A stretch of 64,000 bases of DNA. Source: a bacterium (GTDB lineage Bacteria > Elusimicrobiota > Elusimicrobia > UBA1565 > UBA9628). The notes beneath the pieces were generated by a model, which was not told the origin of the DNA, ran no database searches, and was given only the letters and a program-made list of their open reading frames with translations. The stretch is taken from NCBI GenBank assembly GCA_021822495.1, contig JAKAQO010000002.1, positions 1-64,000 of the forward strand, written 5' to 3'. Positions 49,277 to 57,826 of this stretch are shown here, in pieces; within the stretch, counting starts at the first letter, position 1, and every line of letters begins with the position of its first letter. A program made the position numbers and the translations under genes.

Positions 49277-50824
49277 TCATCGCAAAACAATCGGAAAAAT
49301 CTTCGCGCGGACAGACCTTGGTAAAAGCTGGGGATTTTGAGAGTGATTTTTTAAATCCGCCTGGGACTCAACCTCGGGAGACAGATAATCGTAGAGAGAG
49401 CCCATACTGATATGTTTAAGATTATTGAGAGCTTTACCGTTAAGGCCGCGCAAAAAATAATAGGTCAAAAGCCCGTGGCCTTGCCGTTTAAGGACCTCGG
49501 CGGTTTGGTTGTCCCGCGCGGCGGTCAAAACGACGATTTTACCGTTTCCAGGAACAAAGCCGGGGTTAATATGGGTCTCAAGCGGGCGAAGGCCGGGACG
49601 GATAATCGAGCGCGGACCCGCTCCGGAGAAACAAGAGTCTAAAATAACAATCACGCGGTGGGCGGGAATTTTTAAAAGATCGCCGTAAAGCCTTTTTAAA
49701 GGATAGGCGGTCTTCGTCAAAAATTCTGGATTCCCGTCAAAGGGCACTAAATAAGCCTCGCCTGTGTCCGGGTTGGGAGCGCCGTGGCCGGAAAAATAAA
49801 AATATACGCGGGAATCTTTTTTGACGTTTTTAGGAAGCCAATCTTCCAAATAGGCCGCTAAATCGCTTTTGGTTGCGGTCTCGTTAAGCAAAAGGCGCAA
49901 ATGTTCATCAGGAACCCCCAAGGCTAAAAAATGCTTTTGAACGGACACGGCGTCCCGCTCAGAAAATTCAGAGGGCATGACGCCTCCGGCATATTTTTCA
50001 ACGCCGACCACAACCGCAAAATCATCGGGCTTAATGGGACTATGATAGGTGGGAGCGTCCACATCGCTTTTAATTTCGGGAGGTTTTTTAGCTTTCTTAG
50101 ACTCTTTAAGGCTTTCAATTTCTTTTGCCAGAACATCCAAGCGATGAGCGATGTTTTTCTGGGTTGAATTTTGCGCTTCTTGCGCGACTCGAGAAGCAAT
50201 GCGGGTTATTTCTTCTTTTGACAAATTCTGGCCCGACAAGCGTTCCACCTCACGCCGAGCGCCCGGCGACGGAGGATGAAGACGATAGTCTTCAATGAGC
50301 GCAGCAACCTGCTGATGCTCCATCTGGTAGGCATAATCCAAAGCCGTGTGGCCGCTGTCGTCCCGCACCCCCACTCTCGCGCCATGTTTCAAAAGAATTC
50401 TCACTAAATCCACTTGTCCATATTTCGCGGCAAGCATCAAAGCCGTATGCCCATATTTGTTTTGCAAATTGACATCCGCCCCATGTCGAATTAAAAACCG
50501 AGCGATGCGCGTTCCCTCTTGAGAAGGGGCAACTGAAACGCTGAGCGGGCGAAACTTTGGAAACCGAAACGTGGGTTCAATGAAGTTTGTATTTCTCCAC
50601 AATTGCGGCATATCCGTGTGCCCACCGGATGCGATCTCCATTAAGGCTGTGTCGCCAGAGGAATTCGTAGCATTGATGGAAGCGCCTTGAGAAACGAGTA
50701 TCCGCGCTTGGGAGAAATCCCCATTTGATACGGCGCTTAAAAAATCGGAATTAAGACCGGCAAAAGCCCAAGACGACGGGAAGAAAGAAATAAAGAATAA
50801 AAGGGAAATAGTCCGAGAGTTCAT
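49277..50824 (-). CDS. Secreted ankyrin-repeat caspase-like (peptidase C14) protein
   Basis: 515 residues. Signal peptide (1-22), three to four ankyrin repeats (about 28-180, e.g. NKYGHTALMLAAKYGQVDLVRILL), a coiled-coil linker (about 200-250), then a caspase/metacaspase domain with catalytic His347 in YFYFSGHG and Cys398 in VILDSCFSG. It is expected to be an active periplasmic or extracellular cysteine protease cutting after Arg/Lys or Asp. The start overlaps radical SAM C by 4 bases (ATGA), placing it at the end of the RiPP-like operon. Confidence 0.85.
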   Translation of the reverse strand: MNSRTISLLFFISFFPSSWAFAGLNSDFLSAVSNGDFSQARILVSQGASINATNSSGDTALMEIASGGHTDMPQLWRNTNFIEPTFRFPKFRPLSVSVAPSQEGTRIARFLIRHGADVNLQNKYGHTALMLAAKYGQVDLVRILLKHGARVGVRDDSGHTALDYAYQMEHQQVAALIEDYRLHPPSPGARREVERLSGQNLSKEEITRIASRVAQEAQNSTQKNIAHRLDVLAKEIESLKESKKAKKPPEIKSDVDAPTYHSPIKPDDFAVVVGVEKYAGGVMPSEFSERDAVSVQKHFLALGVPDEHLRLLLNETATKSDLAAYLEDWLPKNVKKDSRVYFYFSGHGAPNPDTGEAYLVPFDGNPEFLTKTAYPLKRLYGDLLKIPAHRVIVILDSCFSGAGPRSIIRPGLRPLETHINPGFVPGNGKIVVLTAARDNQTAEVLKRQGHGLLTYYFLRGLNGKALNNLKHISMGSLYDYLSPEVESQADLKNHSQNPQLLPRSVRAKIFPIVLR

Positions 50825-51816
50825 CGCTGATCAGATTGCTTTAACTCATCCCACGAGTCCCAACACTCATTAGCATGAAGTAACAGGGCGGGGTCTTCCT
50901 GCATCCGTTCGACAAATTTTTTAACAATCGGAGAACTCCAGGCTTGAACGGCTTTTTTCCAAGCGGCATCCAGTTTTTCTTTCTTTAAGTCCGCCGCGTA
51001 AAAAGGAAGGGCGTTGAGAAGTTTGACCTTGCCATCGGGAACGACCAAGACCATGGATTGCGGGTTTTGAAGCCTGACTGCGGCTTCGCGGCGAATGTCC
51101 CAGGGGTAAGCCGAAATTTTGACCGGATTTCCCAAGACGTTGGCCCGCTCTTTAATTTTTTGAAGCGTCTTTTCCCAAAGTTCATCGGGAATAGATAAAC
51201 GCTCCCAAGCCGCAGCGGCTCGCCCCAAACGCATCATGGGACCAGTCACAAAAAGACGCGCTCCCAATTGGGCGGCCAACTCGTAAGCAGAAACAGCGTC
51301 TTCTATATTCAACTTATTCGGCACGAAAACGAACTCCGGTTCAAGACCCGCCTGGGCCAAGGCCTTAAGAGAATCAACGGCTTTTTTCCAGGAACCACTG
51401 GGCCTGACCCGTTCATGAATTTCAGCCCTTGAGCCATCCACGCTAATTTGAATGGAGGAAATTCCCAGATGCTTCAAGCGTTCAATGGCCGCATCATCAA
51501 TAAAAAGCCCGTTGGTCTCGATTTTAATTTGAGCCCCGCCGCGGCTTAAAATCTCAAAAACATCCCAAGAGTGCTCAATTAAAAGCGGTTCTCCGCCTCC
51601 AAAGGCGACATAGGGAATTCCCAGTTCGACGATTTGGCGAGATAAGCTTAAGGCTTCTTCTTTTGAGAGTTCTTTTTTCCAAGCCTTATCCGGACCGGAT
51701 TCCTCGCAACAATGAAGGCAAAAAGAAGTGCAACGGTTGGTCAGTTGCCAAGCAAGAAAGAGGGGAGCGCTATAATCTGCGATCCGCGCCCCCCTTCCCT
51801 CAGAATCTTTTAGCAT
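50821..51816 (-). CDS. Radical SAM protein C of the RiPP-like cluster (PqqE-like)
   Basis: 331 residues from ATG 51816 (a GTG lies two codons up). CxxxCxxC is CTSFCLHC, with GGGEPLLIEHSW and IKIETNG typical of PqqE/MftC-type enzymes. The C-terminal domain follows the SPASM layout (VVPDGKVKLLNALPF...) but lacks the cysteines for auxiliary clusters. The first 9 residues derive from the inserted Fic segment; the original start was GTG at 53435, overlapping the peptide gene. It is paralogous to proteins A and B. Confidence 0.85.
   Translation of the reverse strand: MLKDSEGRGARIADYSAPLFLAWQLTNRCTSFCLHCCEESGPDKAWKKELSKEEALSLSRQIVELGIPYVAFGGGEPLLIEHSWDVFEILSRGGAQIKIETNGLFIDDAAIERLKHLGISSIQISVDGSRAEIHERVRPSGSWKKAVDSLKALAQAGLEPEFVFVPNKLNIEDAVSAYELAAQLGARLFVTGPMMRLGRAAAAWERLSIPDELWEKTLQKIKERANVLGNPVKISAYPWDIRREAAVRLQNPQSMVLVVPDGKVKLLNALPFYAADLKKEKLDAAWKKAVQAWSSPIVKKFVERMQEDPALLLHANECWDSWDELKQSDQR
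51732..51795 (-). repeat. 64-bp direct repeat, copy inside radical SAM C
   Basis: Perfectly identical to 53360-53423. It covers the codons for GARIADYSAPLFLAWQLTNR of radical SAM C. The two copies flank the Fic gene and mark an insertion with duplication. Confidence 0.95.
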
Positions 51817-51838
51817 CGCCACAATTTCAGCTATCTCG

Positions 51839-53341
51839 TTAAAAACGCTTCATCAAACGCGCTAATGCCGCTGTTAACCCATTGTCAAGAAGTTCATCCA
51901 ATTCCTTCTTGCGGTCTACAATAATAGAATCCGCCTTCTCCGCATGCACAAACCGAAATGAATCCTTGTTGCTTTCAATATCGCGCGAGGGAGATTGGAC
52001 ATCCTTTCTCCCAGATGGATCGTCTTCTATGACGGCAAATGTCGTCACGGCCATAACGCCCGAGTCTCGGCCAGCGCCATGTAGAGACGTCACATATTTT
52101 AACTGCAAGCCTTCAACGCGAATACGAAGGCTCGCCCAGGAAGAAAAAAGAGTGAAATCAGCCAAATGGCCCGCAACGCGAGAGGAGTTTATAATATCGT
52201 TTTTATACCAGTGCGCATTTGAATCGCCGGGACCAGCGCAATCAAAGACAATTTTTACATCAGAAATACCTTTTTCCTTAAAGATGCCGCGTAATTCTTC
52301 ATTTTTCTTTTTAAACCAATGCTGAATTTCTGCCTGAACCGCTTTAGCTCTACTATTAAGGGCTTTTTGCCTCTGCGTTTCTTGCCTGCGCCGCAAAGCC
52401 GAAAGCTGATCCGCAAGAGTGTGCGCGACATCGGCGGATAGTCCGCCAACAAGAAGCTCTTGCGGCCGCTCCAACTCGCCAGCGAGGGCATTGCTTTCTA
52501 AACGCGTAAAAAGAGCGACCAAGGGATTTAAGTCCCCGTCATTAGCCACATCCAATGCTTTAAGATAGTCATCTCTATGAAAACGATCCACGACCAAAGG
52601 CGCAAAATGATGTTTATCAAGAACCAAAAGAGTGAGAGCGCGCGCAACCCTCCCATTTCCATCAGCGAACGGATGAACGCAAACAAAGCCATGATGAAAC
52701 CAAGCGGCCTTCACAATTGGGTGAATTTCTTGTTTAGAATCAATTTCTTCAAACAAACGGACAAGCTCATCCATTTCTGAAGCGACATGCTCCGGAGGAG
52801 TGTACTCTAAAATCGTACCGTCTTGCCTTTCCACATGATTGGGTTGAATCTTCCACCCGCCATGGTCGAGAGGGACCTCCATTTTTCGGCCATTCACGTC
52901 GTAAACGATATGCGTCAACTGGGTACGGGTAAGCGCGCTATGCAGTTCTTTAATGAATGCCGTGTTAAGATTTCTCTCCGCGCGGACAAATTCAAGCACC
53001 ATCTGCAGACTATCTCTTTGGGCTTTAAGCGTCTCCAAAACATCTTCATTAATCCGCCCACCTTCCCGTTCAACGACATCTCGGCTAAAGCCTTCGGCGA
53101 CAAGAGTCAACGTTAATCCCCAATCAATATCATACAAGCGTTCAATAATACCCGTTTCTATTGATAATTTGCGCAGGCTTCTTTGACGAACCAAAGTCCG
53201 CTCTTTTTCCGACATGGATTTTAAATATTCGGCCCATTCCTCGCGCAGGGAATCAAGGGCCGCCAAGCTCCCATTGGTGGATATTTTTCTCATGTCCAAA
53301 GGAGCAATACGGCGCCATGGAATTTTTTTTTCGTTAGACAT
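51839..53341 (-). CDS. Fic-domain protein (AMPylase-like)
   Basis: 500 residues. The active-site motif HPFADGNGRVAR (His223) is complete, so it can transfer AMP or a related group to target hydroxyls. An upstream SIETGIIE stretch (60-67) lies where the inhibitory helix of class II Fic proteins sits, though the usual Gly/Asn after Glu is Arg. The C-terminal 170 residues are an added helical/beta domain. It interrupts the RiPP-like operon between two 64-bp direct repeats, so it is a later acquisition. No antitoxin gene adjoins. Confidence 0.9.
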   Translation of the reverse strand: MSNEKKIPWRRIAPLDMRKISTNGSLAALDSLREEWAEYLKSMSEKERTLVRQRSLRKLSIETGIIERLYDIDWGLTLTLVAEGFSRDVVEREGGRINEDVLETLKAQRDSLQMVLEFVRAERNLNTAFIKELHSALTRTQLTHIVYDVNGRKMEVPLDHGGWKIQPNHVERQDGTILEYTPPEHVASEMDELVRLFEEIDSKQEIHPIVKAAWFHHGFVCVHPFADGNGRVARALTLLVLDKHHFAPLVVDRFHRDDYLKALDVANDGDLNPLVALFTRLESNALAGELERPQELLVGGLSADVAHTLADQLSALRRRQETQRQKALNSRAKAVQAEIQHWFKKKNEELRGIFKEKGISDVKIVFDCAGPGDSNAHWYKNDIINSSRVAGHLADFTLFSSWASLRIRVEGLQLKYVTSLHGAGRDSGVMAVTTFAVIEDDPSGRKDVQSPSRDIESNKDSFRFVHAEKADSIIVDRKKELDELLDNGLTAALARLMKRF

Positions 53342-53435
53342 AATATTTAGTCAACTGAAAACGGTTGGTCAGTTGCCAAGCAAGAAAGAGGGGAGCGCTA
53401 TAATCTGCGATCCGCGCCCCCCTCTCGTGAGTCAC
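53334..53435 (-). pseudogene. 5' stub of the original radical SAM C gene
   Basis: GTG at 53435 overlaps the peptide stop as GTGA, the same coupling used elsewhere in this operon. It reads VTHERGARIADYSAPLFLAW... for 26 codons identical in part to radical SAM C, then diverges at the insertion edge into QLTKYYV and TAA. It shows where the intact gene began before the Fic insertion. Confidence 0.75.
53360..53423 (-). repeat. 64-bp direct repeat, copy beside the peptide gene
   Basis: Identical to 51732-51795. It is the operon-side copy, located in the stub of radical SAM C 9 bases after the peptide stop codon. Confidence 0.95.
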
Positions 53436-53554
53436 GTGAACCGAATGTAGGGCTGCGCCATCACCCGCTCGGAAACCTCTTCCATTTTGGGAGTTTCCCA
53501 GACGAGCTTTTTCGAGGCTTTCGCCCCCTCGCTCACGTTTTTTTGGTCGTTCAT
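53432..53554 (-). CDS. Candidate RiPP precursor peptide, PqqA-like (40 aa)
   Basis: ATG at 53554, TGA at 53432-53434, with AAGGAGACAGA directly upstream, a near-ideal ribosome binding site 19 bases after radical SAM B. A Lys-rich N-terminus leads into W19-x2-P22, then E25 E26, M32, P35, Y36 and a C-terminal IRFT. Measured from Trp, Pro is at +3, Glu at +7 and Tyr at +17, the spacing of PqqA. The PqqA glutamate at +13 that is cross-linked to Tyr is Met32 here, so the product is not PQQ. The GTGA junction with the radical SAM C stub supports real translation. Confidence 0.8.
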   Translation of the reverse strand: MNDQKNVSEGAKASKKLVWETPKMEEVSERVMAQPYIRFT

Positions 53555-53573
53555 TCTGTCTCCTTCGTGCCGA

Positions 53574-54542
53574 CTAGACCATAGCCGGCAAATCAGATTC
53601 TTCCAAAGGCTTCAAGTGATTCGCTGTCGCTAAAACCGAAGAATCTTTGAGAATCTCATCAAAGCCTGAAGATATCTTAGGATTTTGATAAGCCTTTTGA
53701 CACTTCTCCCAAGACTCAATCAAATTTTCTTTTCTCAAATCAGCGCAGATATAAGGCAAAAAACCTGAAACGCGCACGCGCCCATCCGGCAAAATTAAAA
53801 GAGTCGCGGGCATAGCCCCCTTTTTCATTTTTAAATCTTCTTCGATAGAAAACGGCCTAAATGAGAGTTCCATCTGTCCGGCCAATTCTTTCTCCTTTCT
53901 CTCAAGCAGATTATAAAATTTTTTGTATTCGGCGCGCGAAAGTTCAAGTCTGTCCCACAGTTTTGCCGCGGTCCCAATTCTCATGAGGCTCCCGCTGTTA
54001 AAACGAAAAGCCCCGAGACTGGCGGCCAAATCAATGACGGCCTCGGCCTCGGCGATGTTAATTTGAGTGGGAGCAAAGGTAATTTCAAGCGGGAGATTGT
54101 ATTTTCGCGCCGCGCGACAGGCGGAAATAGTTTTTTCCAGAACCCCTCCTGGGCGCATTTTAGAATAAACGGCCTGGGTGGCCCCGTCTATTGAAATTTG
54201 AAGAGAGCGAATCGGCAAGAAAGAGAGTCTCTCCGCTTCTTTTTCCCCAAAAATTTGCCCATTGGTCTCGATTTTAAGATAGACCGCGCCGCCGCGCCCC
54301 AAAGCCTCCGCGACTTCAAAGAAATGCGGGACAGTCAAGGGTTCTCCCCCCGCTAACAAGACATAGGGAACCTGAGCTTGAATTATTTGATCGGCAACGG
54401 ACAAAGATTCCTCGCGGTTTAATTCATTGGGAAAAGGCTTATGGGGCGCGGAATCGGTGCAACAATGGAGACACGCCAGATTGCAATCCCGGGTCATTTG
54501 CCAGGCGATAAAACTCGGGGCCGATAGTTCGGAAATTTTCAC
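53574..54542 (-). CDS. Radical SAM protein B of the RiPP-like cluster (PqqE-like)
   Basis: 322 residues from GTG 54542, whose GTGA overlaps the UbiA stop. An ATG at 54593 would overlap UbiA by 55 bases. Cluster motif CNLACLHC (Cys20, 24, 27), AGGEPLTVPHFFE, LKIETNG. The C-terminal SPASM-like region (LILPDGRVRVSGFLPYICADLRKENLIESW) keeps the fold pattern with only scattered Cys. The peptide gene lies 19 bases downstream. Likely role: carbon-centred modification of that peptide. Confidence 0.87.
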   Translation of the reverse strand: MKISELSAPSFIAWQMTRDCNLACLHCCTDSAPHKPFPNELNREESLSVADQIIQAQVPYVLLAGGEPLTVPHFFEVAEALGRGGAVYLKIETNGQIFGEKEAERLSFLPIRSLQISIDGATQAVYSKMRPGGVLEKTISACRAARKYNLPLEITFAPTQINIAEAEAVIDLAASLGAFRFNSGSLMRIGTAAKLWDRLELSRAEYKKFYNLLERKEKELAGQMELSFRPFSIEEDLKMKKGAMPATLLILPDGRVRVSGFLPYICADLRKENLIESWEKCQKAYQNPKISSGFDEILKDSSVLATANHLKPLEESDLPAMV

Positions 54543-55459
54543 CGGTGAATAATCAAGCTTAAAGTAAAAACGGAAGTCGCGACCAAATAGCACAAAACGA
54601 TATTTTTAATGGCTGGAACAAAGAGGCGCGGGCTGTCCCAGGTTTTCAAAGCGGTCTTCGCGCTGAGAACCCAAAAGGGAATTCCGGCCAAGGCCGCAAA
54701 AAAAGCGAGTTTTGGGAAAACGCCCAGAACTGATCCGATGATTGAAACCAGAAGCCCCAAAGCGGAAAGCCCCAAATACAGAAAAACGCCGTTTTTGCGC
54801 CCCAACCTCACGACCAAATTTCTCTTTCCCACCAAGCGGTCCTGATAGAAATCAGGAATGGCATTGACAACGGCTAAGGACATAATCAAAAGCCCGGGAA
54901 CCAAAGACGCCGCCAAAGCGTTCCAAGAAAAATGATGGGTGTAAAGGGCTAAACTCCCCAAGGTCATCCACGGCCCATAAGAAAGGCCGATCATGAGTTC
55001 TCCCATTCCCCGGTAAACCCAGCGAATGGGCGGGCCCACATAAAAAAGAGCGGCAAGGCCGCCCAGAAGAGTGTAGAGAATAACGGGCCATCCGCCAAAT
55101 TTAGCCAAATAAAAGCCGACAGATGCCGCAACCGCGAAAGAAGCGATTCCCAGCCACAGCATCCACTCCGGGATATATTCATCGTCGGAAGGATTAAAGA
55201 CGCGATCAGTTCCCATGCGGGCATCAAAATATTCATTGAAGGACTCAACCCCGACAACCGAGAGAAATATTCCAAACAGCCCAAGCCCGAACAAGTAGAA
55301 GGAAAAAGTTTTCTCTACGCCATAGGCCCAGGCCGAACCTAAAAGATAAGGAAGAAGCCCCGCATAGAGAAAAAACCGGTAGCGAATCAAAGAGAAGACG
55401 CGAAAAGGCGCGTCTAAAACTCCAAGACGCTCTTTTACGATCGCTTCAGCCACGCTCAA
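54539..55459 (-). CDS. UbiA-family prenyltransferase
   Basis: 306 residues, starting at TTG 55459 whose TTGA overlaps the stop of radical SAM A. About eight to nine membrane helices with both Asp-rich motifs: NEYFDARMGTD (NxxxDxxxxxD) and DFYQD. UbiA enzymes (MenA, UbiA, chlorophyll synthase) attach polyprenyl chains to aromatic acceptors at the inner membrane. No menaquinone or ubiquinone genes adjoin. Coupling to three radical SAM genes suggests that the acceptor is the peptide-derived product. Confidence 0.9.
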   Translation of the reverse strand: MSVAEAIVKERLGVLDAPFRVFSLIRYRFFLYAGLLPYLLGSAWAYGVEKTFSFYLFGLGLFGIFLSVVGVESFNEYFDARMGTDRVFNPSDDEYIPEWMLWLGIASFAVAASVGFYLAKFGGWPVILYTLLGGLAALFYVGPPIRWVYRGMGELMIGLSYGPWMTLGSLALYTHHFSWNALAASLVPGLLIMSLAVVNAIPDFYQDRLVGKRNLVVRLGRKNGVFLYLGLSALGLLVSIIGSVLGVFPKLAFFAALAGIPFWVLSAKTALKTWDSPRLFVPAIKNIVLCYLVATSVFTLSLIIHR

Positions 55460-56433
55460 ACCTCAACCCATTTATGGAGCTTTGAAACCACCGTCGGATC
55501 TCTTTCCAGTTCCTGGACAAAGCCGTAAACCTTCGGGTTTTTCCAGGCTTCCTGAAAATGCTTCCAGACTTGGCCCAGGGATTGCTGGCGCAAATTCCCG
55601 CAGACAAAGGGAAGGGCGTTGATGAGTTTCACCTTGCCGTTGGGCAAGATAATGAAAAGGGCCGCCGGGTTTTCCAGGCGATATTTCAGCTCTTCTAAAA
55701 TCCCCATTTCATGAAAATACACCCGCATTCGGCCATCATATTCTTTAGCTTTCAAACGCAAAGTATCAAAAAAGGTGGGGTAATCGGCTTCATCGGGCGC
55801 GGTTATCTTCCAGGTCCGAACGGCGTTTCCGGTGTACATGATTTTTCCGGTGTAGAAGCTGTAAGCTCCAAGCTGGTATGCTAAATCGACCACATCAGCG
55901 ATTTCCTTGATATTAAATTTCGCTGGAACGAAATTAATCTCAATAGGAACCCCCGCTTCGCGCAAATTTTTAATTCCCTCGATGGCCGACTCAAAGCGCC
56001 CGTGAATCCGCATCTTATCAAAGGACGCCGGGTTGGCGCCGTCTAAAGAAACCTGAACGGCCTTGACCCCGAAAGTTTTAAGCCGCTTGCAATTTTCAGG
56101 CGTCAAATAATGGCCATTGGTCTCAATTTTAAGTCCCACCCCGCCTTTGATGATTCTTTCAACCATCTCGAAAAAATGCGGATGAACCATCGGCTCTCCG
56201 CCGGAAAATGAGACGTAGGGCACTTGCCCGGCAATCAACTGATCGATGACGGAAAAGGCCTCGTCTTTTGTCAGCTCGTCTTTAAAGGCTTTTCCAGGAC
56301 CCGATTCTTCAATACAATGCAGGCAAGCGAGGTTACACTCATTGGTAATCTGCCAGGCGACATACAGGGGCGCGCCTAAATCTTCCGAAGAAACGGTTTC
56401 GTCCGCTTCTTTAACTTGGGTTACAGAAGCCAT
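55456..56433 (-). CDS. Radical SAM protein A of the RiPP-like cluster (PqqE-like)
   Basis: 325 residues. CNLACLHC (Cys33, 37, 40) binds the SAM cluster; FSGGEPMVHPHFFEM and LKIETNGHYL complete the barrel signature. The C-terminal part ILPNGKVKLINALPFVCGNLRQQSLGQVW is SPASM-shaped but has one cysteine only, so auxiliary Fe-S clusters are probably reduced or absent. The start overlaps the PqqD-like stop by one base (TAATG), a typical PqqD-PqqE coupling. Confidence 0.88.
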   Translation of the reverse strand: MASVTQVKEADETVSSEDLGAPLYVAWQITNECNLACLHCIEESGPGKAFKDELTKDEAFSVIDQLIAGQVPYVSFSGGEPMVHPHFFEMVERIIKGGVGLKIETNGHYLTPENCKRLKTFGVKAVQVSLDGANPASFDKMRIHGRFESAIEGIKNLREAGVPIEINFVPAKFNIKEIADVVDLAYQLGAYSFYTGKIMYTGNAVRTWKITAPDEADYPTFFDTLRLKAKEYDGRMRVYFHEMGILEELKYRLENPAALFIILPNGKVKLINALPFVCGNLRQQSLGQVWKHFQEAWKNPKVYGFVQELERDPTVVSKLHKWVEV

Positions 56434-56873
56434 TATTCGATGATGAGGCCCTTGCCTTTGAGCTCGCTTAAAAAGCTGGCGGCCTCTTTTTCCATGTTTC
56501 CAGATGAGTCTTCGTATTTTTCCTTAAGTTTTCCAATCAAAGACGAAGAATCAGCTCCGGCGACGATCTCCCGCACAACGGCCGCGCCGGTCGGGCTTAA
56601 AGTATAAACTTTCTCGGAACGCGTCTCAAACAAAACCGCTCCAAATTTCTCTTCTCTAAATTTCACAAACGGCGCTAATTTCATGACTCCTCCCTTTGAT
56701 GCGGCTAAACACGAAGACGCGTCCGCCGCTTCTCTTTCGATGATTTCCTCTAGTTCCCGCCGCACGTTCTCGCGGTTCTGAACATTTTTTGCGTCCTTTG
56801 AATTTGCGTCATCTTCCGATACGACAAAATCCCCCGACTTCCAGGCTTTCTTTAAAAGAGATTGATAGGACAT
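56433..56873 (-). CDS. PqqD-like peptide chaperone (RRE) with N-terminal extension
   Basis: 146 residues. The last 80 (FVKFREEKFGAVLFETRSEKVYTLSPTGAAVVREI..., FLSELKGKGLIIE) form a PqqD-type winged-helix domain that presents precursor peptides to radical SAM enzymes. The first 63 residues are a polar helical extension. The internal ATG at codon 64 (56684) is preceded by GGGAGGAG, so a short PqqD of normal length may also be made. It is coupled by single-base overlaps to both neighbours. Confidence 0.82.
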   Translation of the reverse strand: MSYQSLLKKAWKSGDFVVSEDDANSKDAKNVQNRENVRRELEEIIEREAADASSCLAASKGGVMKLAPFVKFREEKFGAVLFETRSEKVYTLSPTGAAVVREIVAGADSSSLIGKLKEKYEDSSGNMEKEAASFLSELKGKGLIIE

Positions 56874-57826
56874 TAAAATTCTCTTTTGGCCATCACTTCA
56901 ATAAAGAAAGACAAATCCTTGGCTTCATTTTTTAAGGGCAAGCCCTGACAAAGGGTTTTCATGGAATCGACAATCTCCCGCCCTTTAGAGCGGGCCTCAT
57001 CCAAAAATCCTTCCGCCTTCACAAATGAAATCGCCTGCTTGACCGCTTGAAGATCGGTTTCGCCTTTGCGCCACAAATCTAAAAAATCTCCGCGGGTTTT
57101 TTGGTTTTGAAGAGCGAGAATGCAAGGGAGCGTCAAACGGCGGTTCAACATATCCTGGGCCGCGGGCTTGCCTGAAACTTCTTCGGTCAGTAAAAAATCG
57201 TGAATATCATCCACAATCTGAAGCAAGATTCCGGCGGATAAAGCGAGCCTTGGCGGATCGGAAGCATCATGGGGAAAAGGACTGATTTCAGAAAGAACTT
57301 TTCCGCACCATTCAAAGAGAGCCCCAGTTTTTCGAGCGGCGATTCCCAAATAAGCCTCAACCGAAACTTCAACGCTCCCCTTTAAAAATTCTTCCTGGAG
57401 TTCCCCGGCCGCCATTTCCCGAACCGTCGTCACCAAATGTTCCGGCGCGCGCGGAGAAATATCAATGGCTTCCTCAAGCCCTTGAGAAAAAGCAAGATCG
57501 CCTAGAAGAAGAGCGACCGTGTTTCCGAAAAGAGCGTTTGGGGTCGCGAGTCCCCGCCTGGTGTCAGCCTTATCCACGCAATCATCATGCAAAAGAGAAG
57601 CGTTATGGACAAACTCCATCGCGCGGGAAGCCGCCTCCGCTTTTTTCTCATCCACGCCCAAGGCTTTGGCTAGTAACAGACAAAAACGCGCCCGCAGCAT
57701 TTTTCCCGGGCGGCCGACGTATCCGGCCAGGGTTTCGCCCACGCGGCCGGACAAGCGCTTCGAGCGGTTTTCCATGCCGAGCCGAACCCGCTCGACCGAA
57801 TCTTCAAGACTAAGTAAAGTCAACAT
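56873..57826 (-). CDS. Polyprenyl diphosphate synthase
   Basis: 317 residues. First Asp-rich motif in LLHDDCVDKADTRRG (DDxxD), second in LLQIVDDIHDFL (DDxxD), plus the LLLGDLAFSQ helix of trans-isoprenyl synthases (IspB/HepT type). It makes a C30-C50 chain from IPP. As first gene of the operon it probably supplies the donor for the UbiA enzyme. The start codon has no Shine-Dalgarno sequence and lies 14 bases after a TATAAT. Confidence 0.93.
   Translation of the reverse strand: MLTLLSLEDSVERVRLGMENRSKRLSGRVGETLAGYVGRPGKMLRARFCLLLAKALGVDEKKAEAASRAMEFVHNASLLHDDCVDKADTRRGLATPNALFGNTVALLLGDLAFSQGLEEAIDISPRAPEHLVTTVREMAAGELQEEFLKGSVEVSVEAYLGIAARKTGALFEWCGKVLSEISPFPHDASDPPRLALSAGILLQIVDDIHDFLLTEEVSGKPAAQDMLNRRLTLPCILALQNQKTRGDFLDLWRKGETDLQAVKQAISFVKAEGFLDEARSKGREIVDSMKTLCQGLPLKNEAKDLSFFIEVMAKREF

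Follow-up and report, generated by a model that had tools for sequence, protein, structure and literature searches.

The DNA analysed here, a window of 64,000 nucleotides from contig JAKAQO010000002.1 of an Elusimicrobiota genome (G000), contains on its minus strand an operon encoding, in this order, a polyprenyl synthase, a PqqD-like protein, a radical S-adenosylmethionine enzyme (rSAM A), a UbiA prenyltransferase, a second radical enzyme (rSAM B), a 40-aa peptide, and a third radical enzyme (rSAM C). All seven genes were found on that strand at the positions assigned to them in a preliminary description of the locus, and their families were borne out by Pfam. The coordinates below, as throughout, are positions in the window.

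56873..57826, minus strand: polyprenyl diphosphate synthase, 317 aa, gene 1 of the operon; PF00348 (polyprenyl_synt), 152 bits
56433..56873, minus strand: PqqD-like peptide-binding protein, 146 aa, the recognition element (RRE) of ribosomally synthesized and post-translationally modified peptides (RiPPs); PF05402, 40 bits, above the cut-off
55456..56433, minus strand: radical SAM enzyme A, 325 aa; PF04055 (Radical_SAM), 95 bits
54539..55459, minus strand: UbiA-superfamily prenyltransferase, MenA type, 306 aa; PF01040, 73 bits
53574..54593, minus strand: radical SAM enzyme B, open reading frame (ORF) from GTG 54593; PF04055, 70 bits
53432..53554, minus strand: precursor peptide, 40 aa, MNDQKNVSEGAKASKKLVWETPKMEEVSERVMAQPYIRFT; homologues carry a conserved MAQPYIRFT-stop tail
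50821..51822, minus strand: radical SAM enzyme C, 333 aa; PF04055, 88 bits, with CxxxCxxC

Also correct in that description are the 1- to 4-base overlaps between the genes and the 19 bases that precede the peptide; the synthase and PqqD genes overlap by 1 base, and the probable start of rSAM B is GTG 54542, in a GTGA overlap with the UbiA stop codon. The synthase has two DDxxD motifs, retained in all 37 full-length operon homologues, while the PqqD-like protein has an N-terminal extension of about 65 aa and a conserved motif, VK.R.EKFG.V.F.T..EK.

The peptide, with its tail MAQPYIRFT, turned out to be encoded in 45 of the 45 operons that were found through rSAM A and whose contig spans the site; loci L075 and L202, whose contigs end before it, were left out. 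Since this set was picked by rSAM A and not by the peptide, the invariance of the tail is no artefact of a search pattern. Operons consistently lacking a short peptide gene, which the preliminary description had named as grounds for abandoning its proposal, were thus not encountered among the 45 assessable ones. A degenerate MAQPYIRF pattern was matched by 103 contigs among about 85,000 genomes (species), against a chance expectation of about 5, an estimate based on the pattern's information content. Of 80 such contigs fetched, 78 encode W..P.[LMI]EDVS..VMAQPYIRFT followed by a stop, mostly beside PqqD, rSAM, and UbiA genes; the matches in L134 and L150 were rejected as due to chance. In every distinct full tail the pattern is followed by Thr and an immediate stop, neither of which was demanded by the first pattern; the W and P are fixed, and V or I precedes the M of the tail. 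The amino acids of the core are invariant and its codons are not, there being 62 nucleotide versions. The precursor peptide is co-encoded and co-conserved with an RRE and a maturase (45/45 operons; 78/80 contigs), as is typical of a RiPP, and judged by its sequences it is cofactor-like and not a diversifying bacteriocin.

The system was detected in 50 of 341 Elusimicrobiota genomes, comprising most members of two families of the source genome's order (f1 and f2) and scattered others; here and below, genome-wide statements are based on single-family searches. The co-occurrence of UbiA, PqqD, several rSAM genes, and the peptide that had been anticipated for related genomes was indeed found, the order synthase-PqqD-A-UbiA-B-peptide-C being constant throughout f1 and f2 (about 40 genomes). 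According to the record titles, the pattern contigs come from Elusimicrobiota, Omnitrophota, Planctomycetota, Lentisphaerota, and Alpha-, Beta-, and Gammaproteobacteria, plus single metagenome-assembled genomes labelled Armatimonadetes, Bacillota, Deltaproteobacteria, and Ktedonobacter, labels that may be wrong. Two architectures recur: PqqD-A-UbiA-B-peptide-C at 45 loci (Elusimicrobiota f1/f2 and Pseudomonadota) and peptide-PqqD-A-UbiA, at times with the synthase, at 24 clear loci in the other groups. The core therefore consists of the peptide, PqqD, rSAM A, and UbiA, rSAM A being the radical enzyme common to all versions of the system. No plasmid was matched by rSAM A, and no additional gene recurs widely beside homologous operons except nqr/flavoreductase genes; one group of recurring neighbour ORFs (cluster 3) was discarded, as it appears to consist of antisense ORFs of rSAM genes in GC-rich genomes. 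The gene system is certainly real and conserved.

Several individual loci deviate from this picture. A Planctomycetota locus has rSAM A in two tandem copies (L105:1513-3567), and at a Lentisphaerota locus (L187:9663-10460) the gene of a class I methyltransferase, possibly a tailoring enzyme, overlaps that of UbiA. Assembly errors or decay could explain the broken UbiA of G004 (L041:8353-9278) and the internal stop codons in rSAM B of G001 (C133:7050-7970) and G241 (C4:143837-144763).

We then considered the enzymes. In rSAM A the CxxxCxxC motif is invariant, and the only further invariant cysteine is the C-terminal Cys278. The AlphaFold model of this enzyme (predicted local distance difference test score, 93) had SkfB and PqqE as its best PDB matches, with SuiB just behind, all of them peptide maturases; the protein also scores against the heme-type rSAM models AhbD and NirJ. 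The SPASM-like character attributed to the radical enzymes holds for the fold only: the auxiliary-cluster cysteines have been lost, with one invariant cysteine left after the core domain of A and none fully conserved in C. In an unrooted tree, B and C are paralogue clades, B forming a clade of its own and the C clade having a support of 100.

All 26 diverse operon UbiA proteins examined matched MenA models and were not UbiA-, MqnP-, or CtaB-like. They have the UbiA fold with both Asp-rich motifs, as in MenA, the motifs NE..D...G.D and N..PD...D.LVGK being conserved, and the best PDB match was UBIAD1, the animal menaquinone enzyme. On sequence grounds, the protein is MenA-like, not MenA. Relatives with the futalosine pathway have a different, MqnP-like UbiA. 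The UbiA of the operon is the sole member of its family in G061, G067, and G069; the only other member in G000 is heme O synthase, encoded beside COX1, which rules it out as a second quinone enzyme.

Genes of the known menaquinone pathways were not found in the genomes that carry the system. MqnA/D was detected in none of the 50 carriers of the phylum and MenD in none of a tested set of 80 genomes made up mostly of carriers, while the MenB model matched only other crotonases in carrier genomes. Neither MqnA/D nor MenB nor MenD was found in the source genome, so that it has no complete menaquinone pathway elsewhere to which UbiA and the synthase could belong; such a pathway was the second circumstance that the preliminary description had held to be fatal to its proposal. 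The genes nqrABCDEF encode the Na+-translocating NADH:quinone reductase (Na+-NQR). At eight loci, which belong to Planctomycetota, Omnitrophota, and Lentisphaerota, the operon directly follows nqr genes, the full nqrABCDEF set being present in L110, and at a ninth an NqrF-like gene adjoins it; in L197, the contig also has complex I genes about 6 kb downstream of the operon. Two Omnitrophota operons (L103:5519-7375 and L079:140-991) adjoin genes for hydrogenase/sulfhydrogenase gamma- and beta-like flavoproteins, not nqr.

Taken as a whole, the gene families indicate that the operon is probably a RiPP pathway to a quinone-like electron carrier of the membrane that bears a polyprenyl chain. A membrane redox molecule derived from a peptide and prenylated had been suggested before; the suggestion is strengthened by the nqr adjacency, the MenA-type UbiA, and the co-occurrence with oxidases, and such a molecule is still something that we infer. 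Starting from the observed gene content, conservation, distribution, and absence of known quinone genes, and taking the chemistry and the function from the enzyme families, we picture the pathway as follows. The PqqD-like protein would hold the leader of the peptide while rSAM A, joined in Elusimicrobiota and Pseudomonadota by its paralogues B and C, would oxidise or cross-link residues of the VMAQPYIRFT tail, whose Tyr and Phe are possible sources of an aromatic ring. Release of the product would fall to a peptidase, probably of the housekeeping kind, and the MenA-type UbiA would move the chain built by the operon's synthase onto the aromatic head group. The product would carry electrons from dehydrogenases (Na+-NQR, complex I) to terminal oxidases, either replacing menaquinone or working alongside ubiquinone.

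The distribution of oxidases bears on this proposal in both directions. Among the 341 genomes, the odds ratio for association with COX1 was 26 for the RiPP system and 21 for the futalosine pathway, in Fisher tests that ignore phylogeny; the two never occur in the same genome, and one or the other is present in 66 of the 84 COX1 genomes. The bd oxidase alone does not follow the distribution of the system. Along with the disregard of phylogeny, several observations weigh against an electron carrier. Eighteen COX1-positive genomes of the phylum, including G008, G047, and G056, have neither RiPP nor futalosine genes, and therefore the system alone cannot explain respiration without known quinone genes; conversely, six carriers have neither COX1 nor bd oxidase. 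Full-length UbiE/MenG was not found in the f1/f2 carriers, which is evidence against ordinary menaquinone in these families and leaves the idea that UbiE/MenG completes menaquinone from the RiPP product unsupported there. The operon has no conserved gene for a dedicated peptidase, hydroxylase, or dehydrogenase, and the UbiA proteins stay far below the MenA equivalog cut-offs (at best 100 versus 264 bits). For Rhodopila globiformis, a cultured carrier, the failure to find MqnA/D and MenD concerns a draft genome. As a separate observation, complex I and COX1 are present in G008 (L225, L228), G047, G056, G052, and G053, with bd oxidase in addition in G008; Mqn, Men, and RiPP genes were not found in these five genomes, nor was a non-heme UbiA, by position or by family.

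The cultured carriers of the operon are R. globiformis, Rhodovibrio sodomensis (L142), Rhodothalassium salexigens, and Betaproteobacteria strain GR16-43. Menaquinone-9 was found in R. globiformis by high-performance liquid chromatography, and menaquinone has been modelled at QA (PMC9640540, PMC12542754). Rhodovibrio, with menaquinone-10 (MK-10), is an exception in its family and order (PMC7179689, PMC11316597, PMC10963914), the menaquinone data coming from R. salinarum and the genus and the operon having been seen in R. sodomensis. Five UbiA-family proteins were found in Rhodopila, namely CtaB, UbiA, BchG, a phosphoribosyltransferase-like protein, and that of the operon, the only MenA-like one. 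MK-10 is reportedly present in Rhodothalassium as well, according to the taxonomy of Imhoff. A MenB candidate of Rhodopila (L183:7304-8212, 318 bits) was ruled out, being BadI (464 bits) in a cyclohexanecarboxylate/benzoate cluster; that BadI scores as MenB is a pitfall for automatic pathway calls. In R. salexigens a second MenA-like gene directly follows one for a NapC/TorC-type multiheme cytochrome (L221:5091-7160). A bolder version of the electron-carrier proposal, which we put forward only tentatively, is that the rSAMs make a head group resembling 1,4-dihydroxy-2-naphthoate from VMAQPYIRFT, giving a third route to an isoprenoid naphthoquinone, one based on a ribosomal peptide, or else that the same chemistry yields a new respiratory quinone. 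Such a route would account for the menaquinone of Rhodopila and Rhodovibrio and also for respiration without known quinone genes in Elusimicrobiota and Planctomycetota.

The modified peptide could instead be a soluble redox cofactor like pyrroloquinoline quinone (PQQ) or mycofactocin, with UbiA and the synthase making a separate lipid and merely sharing the operon. The PQQ genes pqqABCDE likewise combine a small peptide, a PqqD carrier, and a SPASM-fold rSAM, with a conserved core giving a redox cofactor, but the peptide found here is unrelated to PqqA, the rSAMs lack the auxiliary-cluster cysteines, and UbiA and the polyprenyl synthase are additional. The mycofactocin genes mftABCDEF similarly pair a peptide having a conserved C-terminal core with PqqD-like MftB and rSAM MftC and give a respiration-tied cofactor; the operon differs in its core VMAQPYIRFT, without a VY end, in prenylation versus glycosylation, and in having up to three rSAM paralogues. 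The equivalog cut-offs of either system were not reached (PqqE, 84 versus 381 bits; PqqD model, 20 versus 46 bits; MftC, 133 versus 265 bits; MftB, 20 versus 33 bits), and the peptide matched no model. As had been stated, Mft genes are absent, there being no MftC or MftB equivalog, MftA core, or MftD/E/F gene in the operon; the same was said of PqqB and PqqC, none of which was found in the operon or recurrently beside its homologues, the rest of the genome not having been searched. A PqqD and a SPASM-fold rSAM near PqqE, MftC, and SkfB are typical of cofactor RiPPs, as is the fixed core, but almost all versions have UbiA, even the minimal four-gene one with no other quinone gene nearby, and a second head-group pathway (MenD, MqnA/D) was not found in carrier genomes. 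We consider a soluble cofactor unlikely.

A lower probability still is given to the view that the rSAMs do not act on the peptide, which as a small protein would have a regulatory or structural role, and that they use a free metabolite to make a quinone head group. The scores of rSAM A against AhbD and NirJ fit this view; the presence of PqqD, a peptide carrier, alongside the system, the invariance of the tail through its last residue and stop, and the peptide maturases SkfB, PqqE, and SuiB as nearest solved structures all speak against it. That a prenylated or lipidated peptide serves as a signal, envelope component, or antimicrobial is the least probable, since, although RiPP prenylation is known from cyanobactins and ComX, these use soluble ABBA- or ComQ-type enzymes and not UbiA, the neighbourhood of the operons has no conserved gene for an exporter, immunity, or a receptor, and the core shows no diversification across phyla.

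In the window itself, the succession of genes had been described as unbroken, which is right for the ancestral operon but not for the peptide and rSAM C here, between which lies a 1.6-kb insert including a Fic gene.

51839..53341, minus strand: inserted Fic/DOC-family gene, 500 aa, outside the pathway; PF02661, 67 bits; relatives lack it between B and C
53360..53423: upstream copy of a 64-bp direct repeat, being the 5' end of the original rSAM C; 100% identical to the other copy
51732..51795: 64-bp direct repeat, downstream copy, within rSAM C; 100% identical to the other copy
53435..53437, minus strand: ancestral GTG start of rSAM C, overlapping the peptide stop (TGA); GTGACTCACGAGAGGGGGGCGCGGATC continues into the first copy of the repeat

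Both repeats are copies of the first rSAM C codons; the old start has been severed by the insertion, and rSAM C is intact from a new one. In relatives, the matches to rSAM B and rSAM C are about 135 to 230 bp apart with no Fic gene between them, from which we conclude that the insertion happened recently and that the ancestral order was the one given at the outset. No Fic match was found in the operons of relatives, the insertion being limited to this genome. The Fic/DOC insertion (51732-53423) is thus accompanied by a long, perfect 64-bp duplication of target DNA.

The menaquinone pathways (Men and futalosine Mqn) resemble the system in having a MenA-type prenyltransferase, a dedicated polyprenyl synthase, and a distribution that follows oxidases; here, however, MenD/MenB and MqnA/D were not found, and a ribosomal peptide and rSAMs replace the enzymes of the chorismate-derived head group. 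GeoRSP and other PqqD/rSAM RiPP systems of NCBIfam also combine an rSAM, a PqqD, and a short peptide, but the scores lay far below the cut-offs (65 to 92 versus 400 bits for GeoRSP), and the definitions of these systems are not known to include UbiA. No entry in NCBIfam, Pfam, or PDB describes the system as such, and a literature search, with most subscription papers and all preprints outside its coverage, gave no paper with the peptide motif or the UbiA/PqqD/rSAM combination. The gene cluster is undescribed and spans several bacterial phyla. Whatever its product, the family libraries searched have no entry for a cofactor-like peptide that is fixed across several phyla, which is a substantial gap, and the presence of the operon in cultured bacteria makes the idea directly testable. 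In all respiratory quinone pathways known to us, the head group is assembled from free small metabolites. If the proposal is true, a quinone or quinone-like carrier cut from a ribosomal peptide would represent a principle new to bioenergetics; it would link the world of PQQ and mycofactocin with membrane electron transport and would also help to explain the respiration of several uncultured lineages without known quinone genes.

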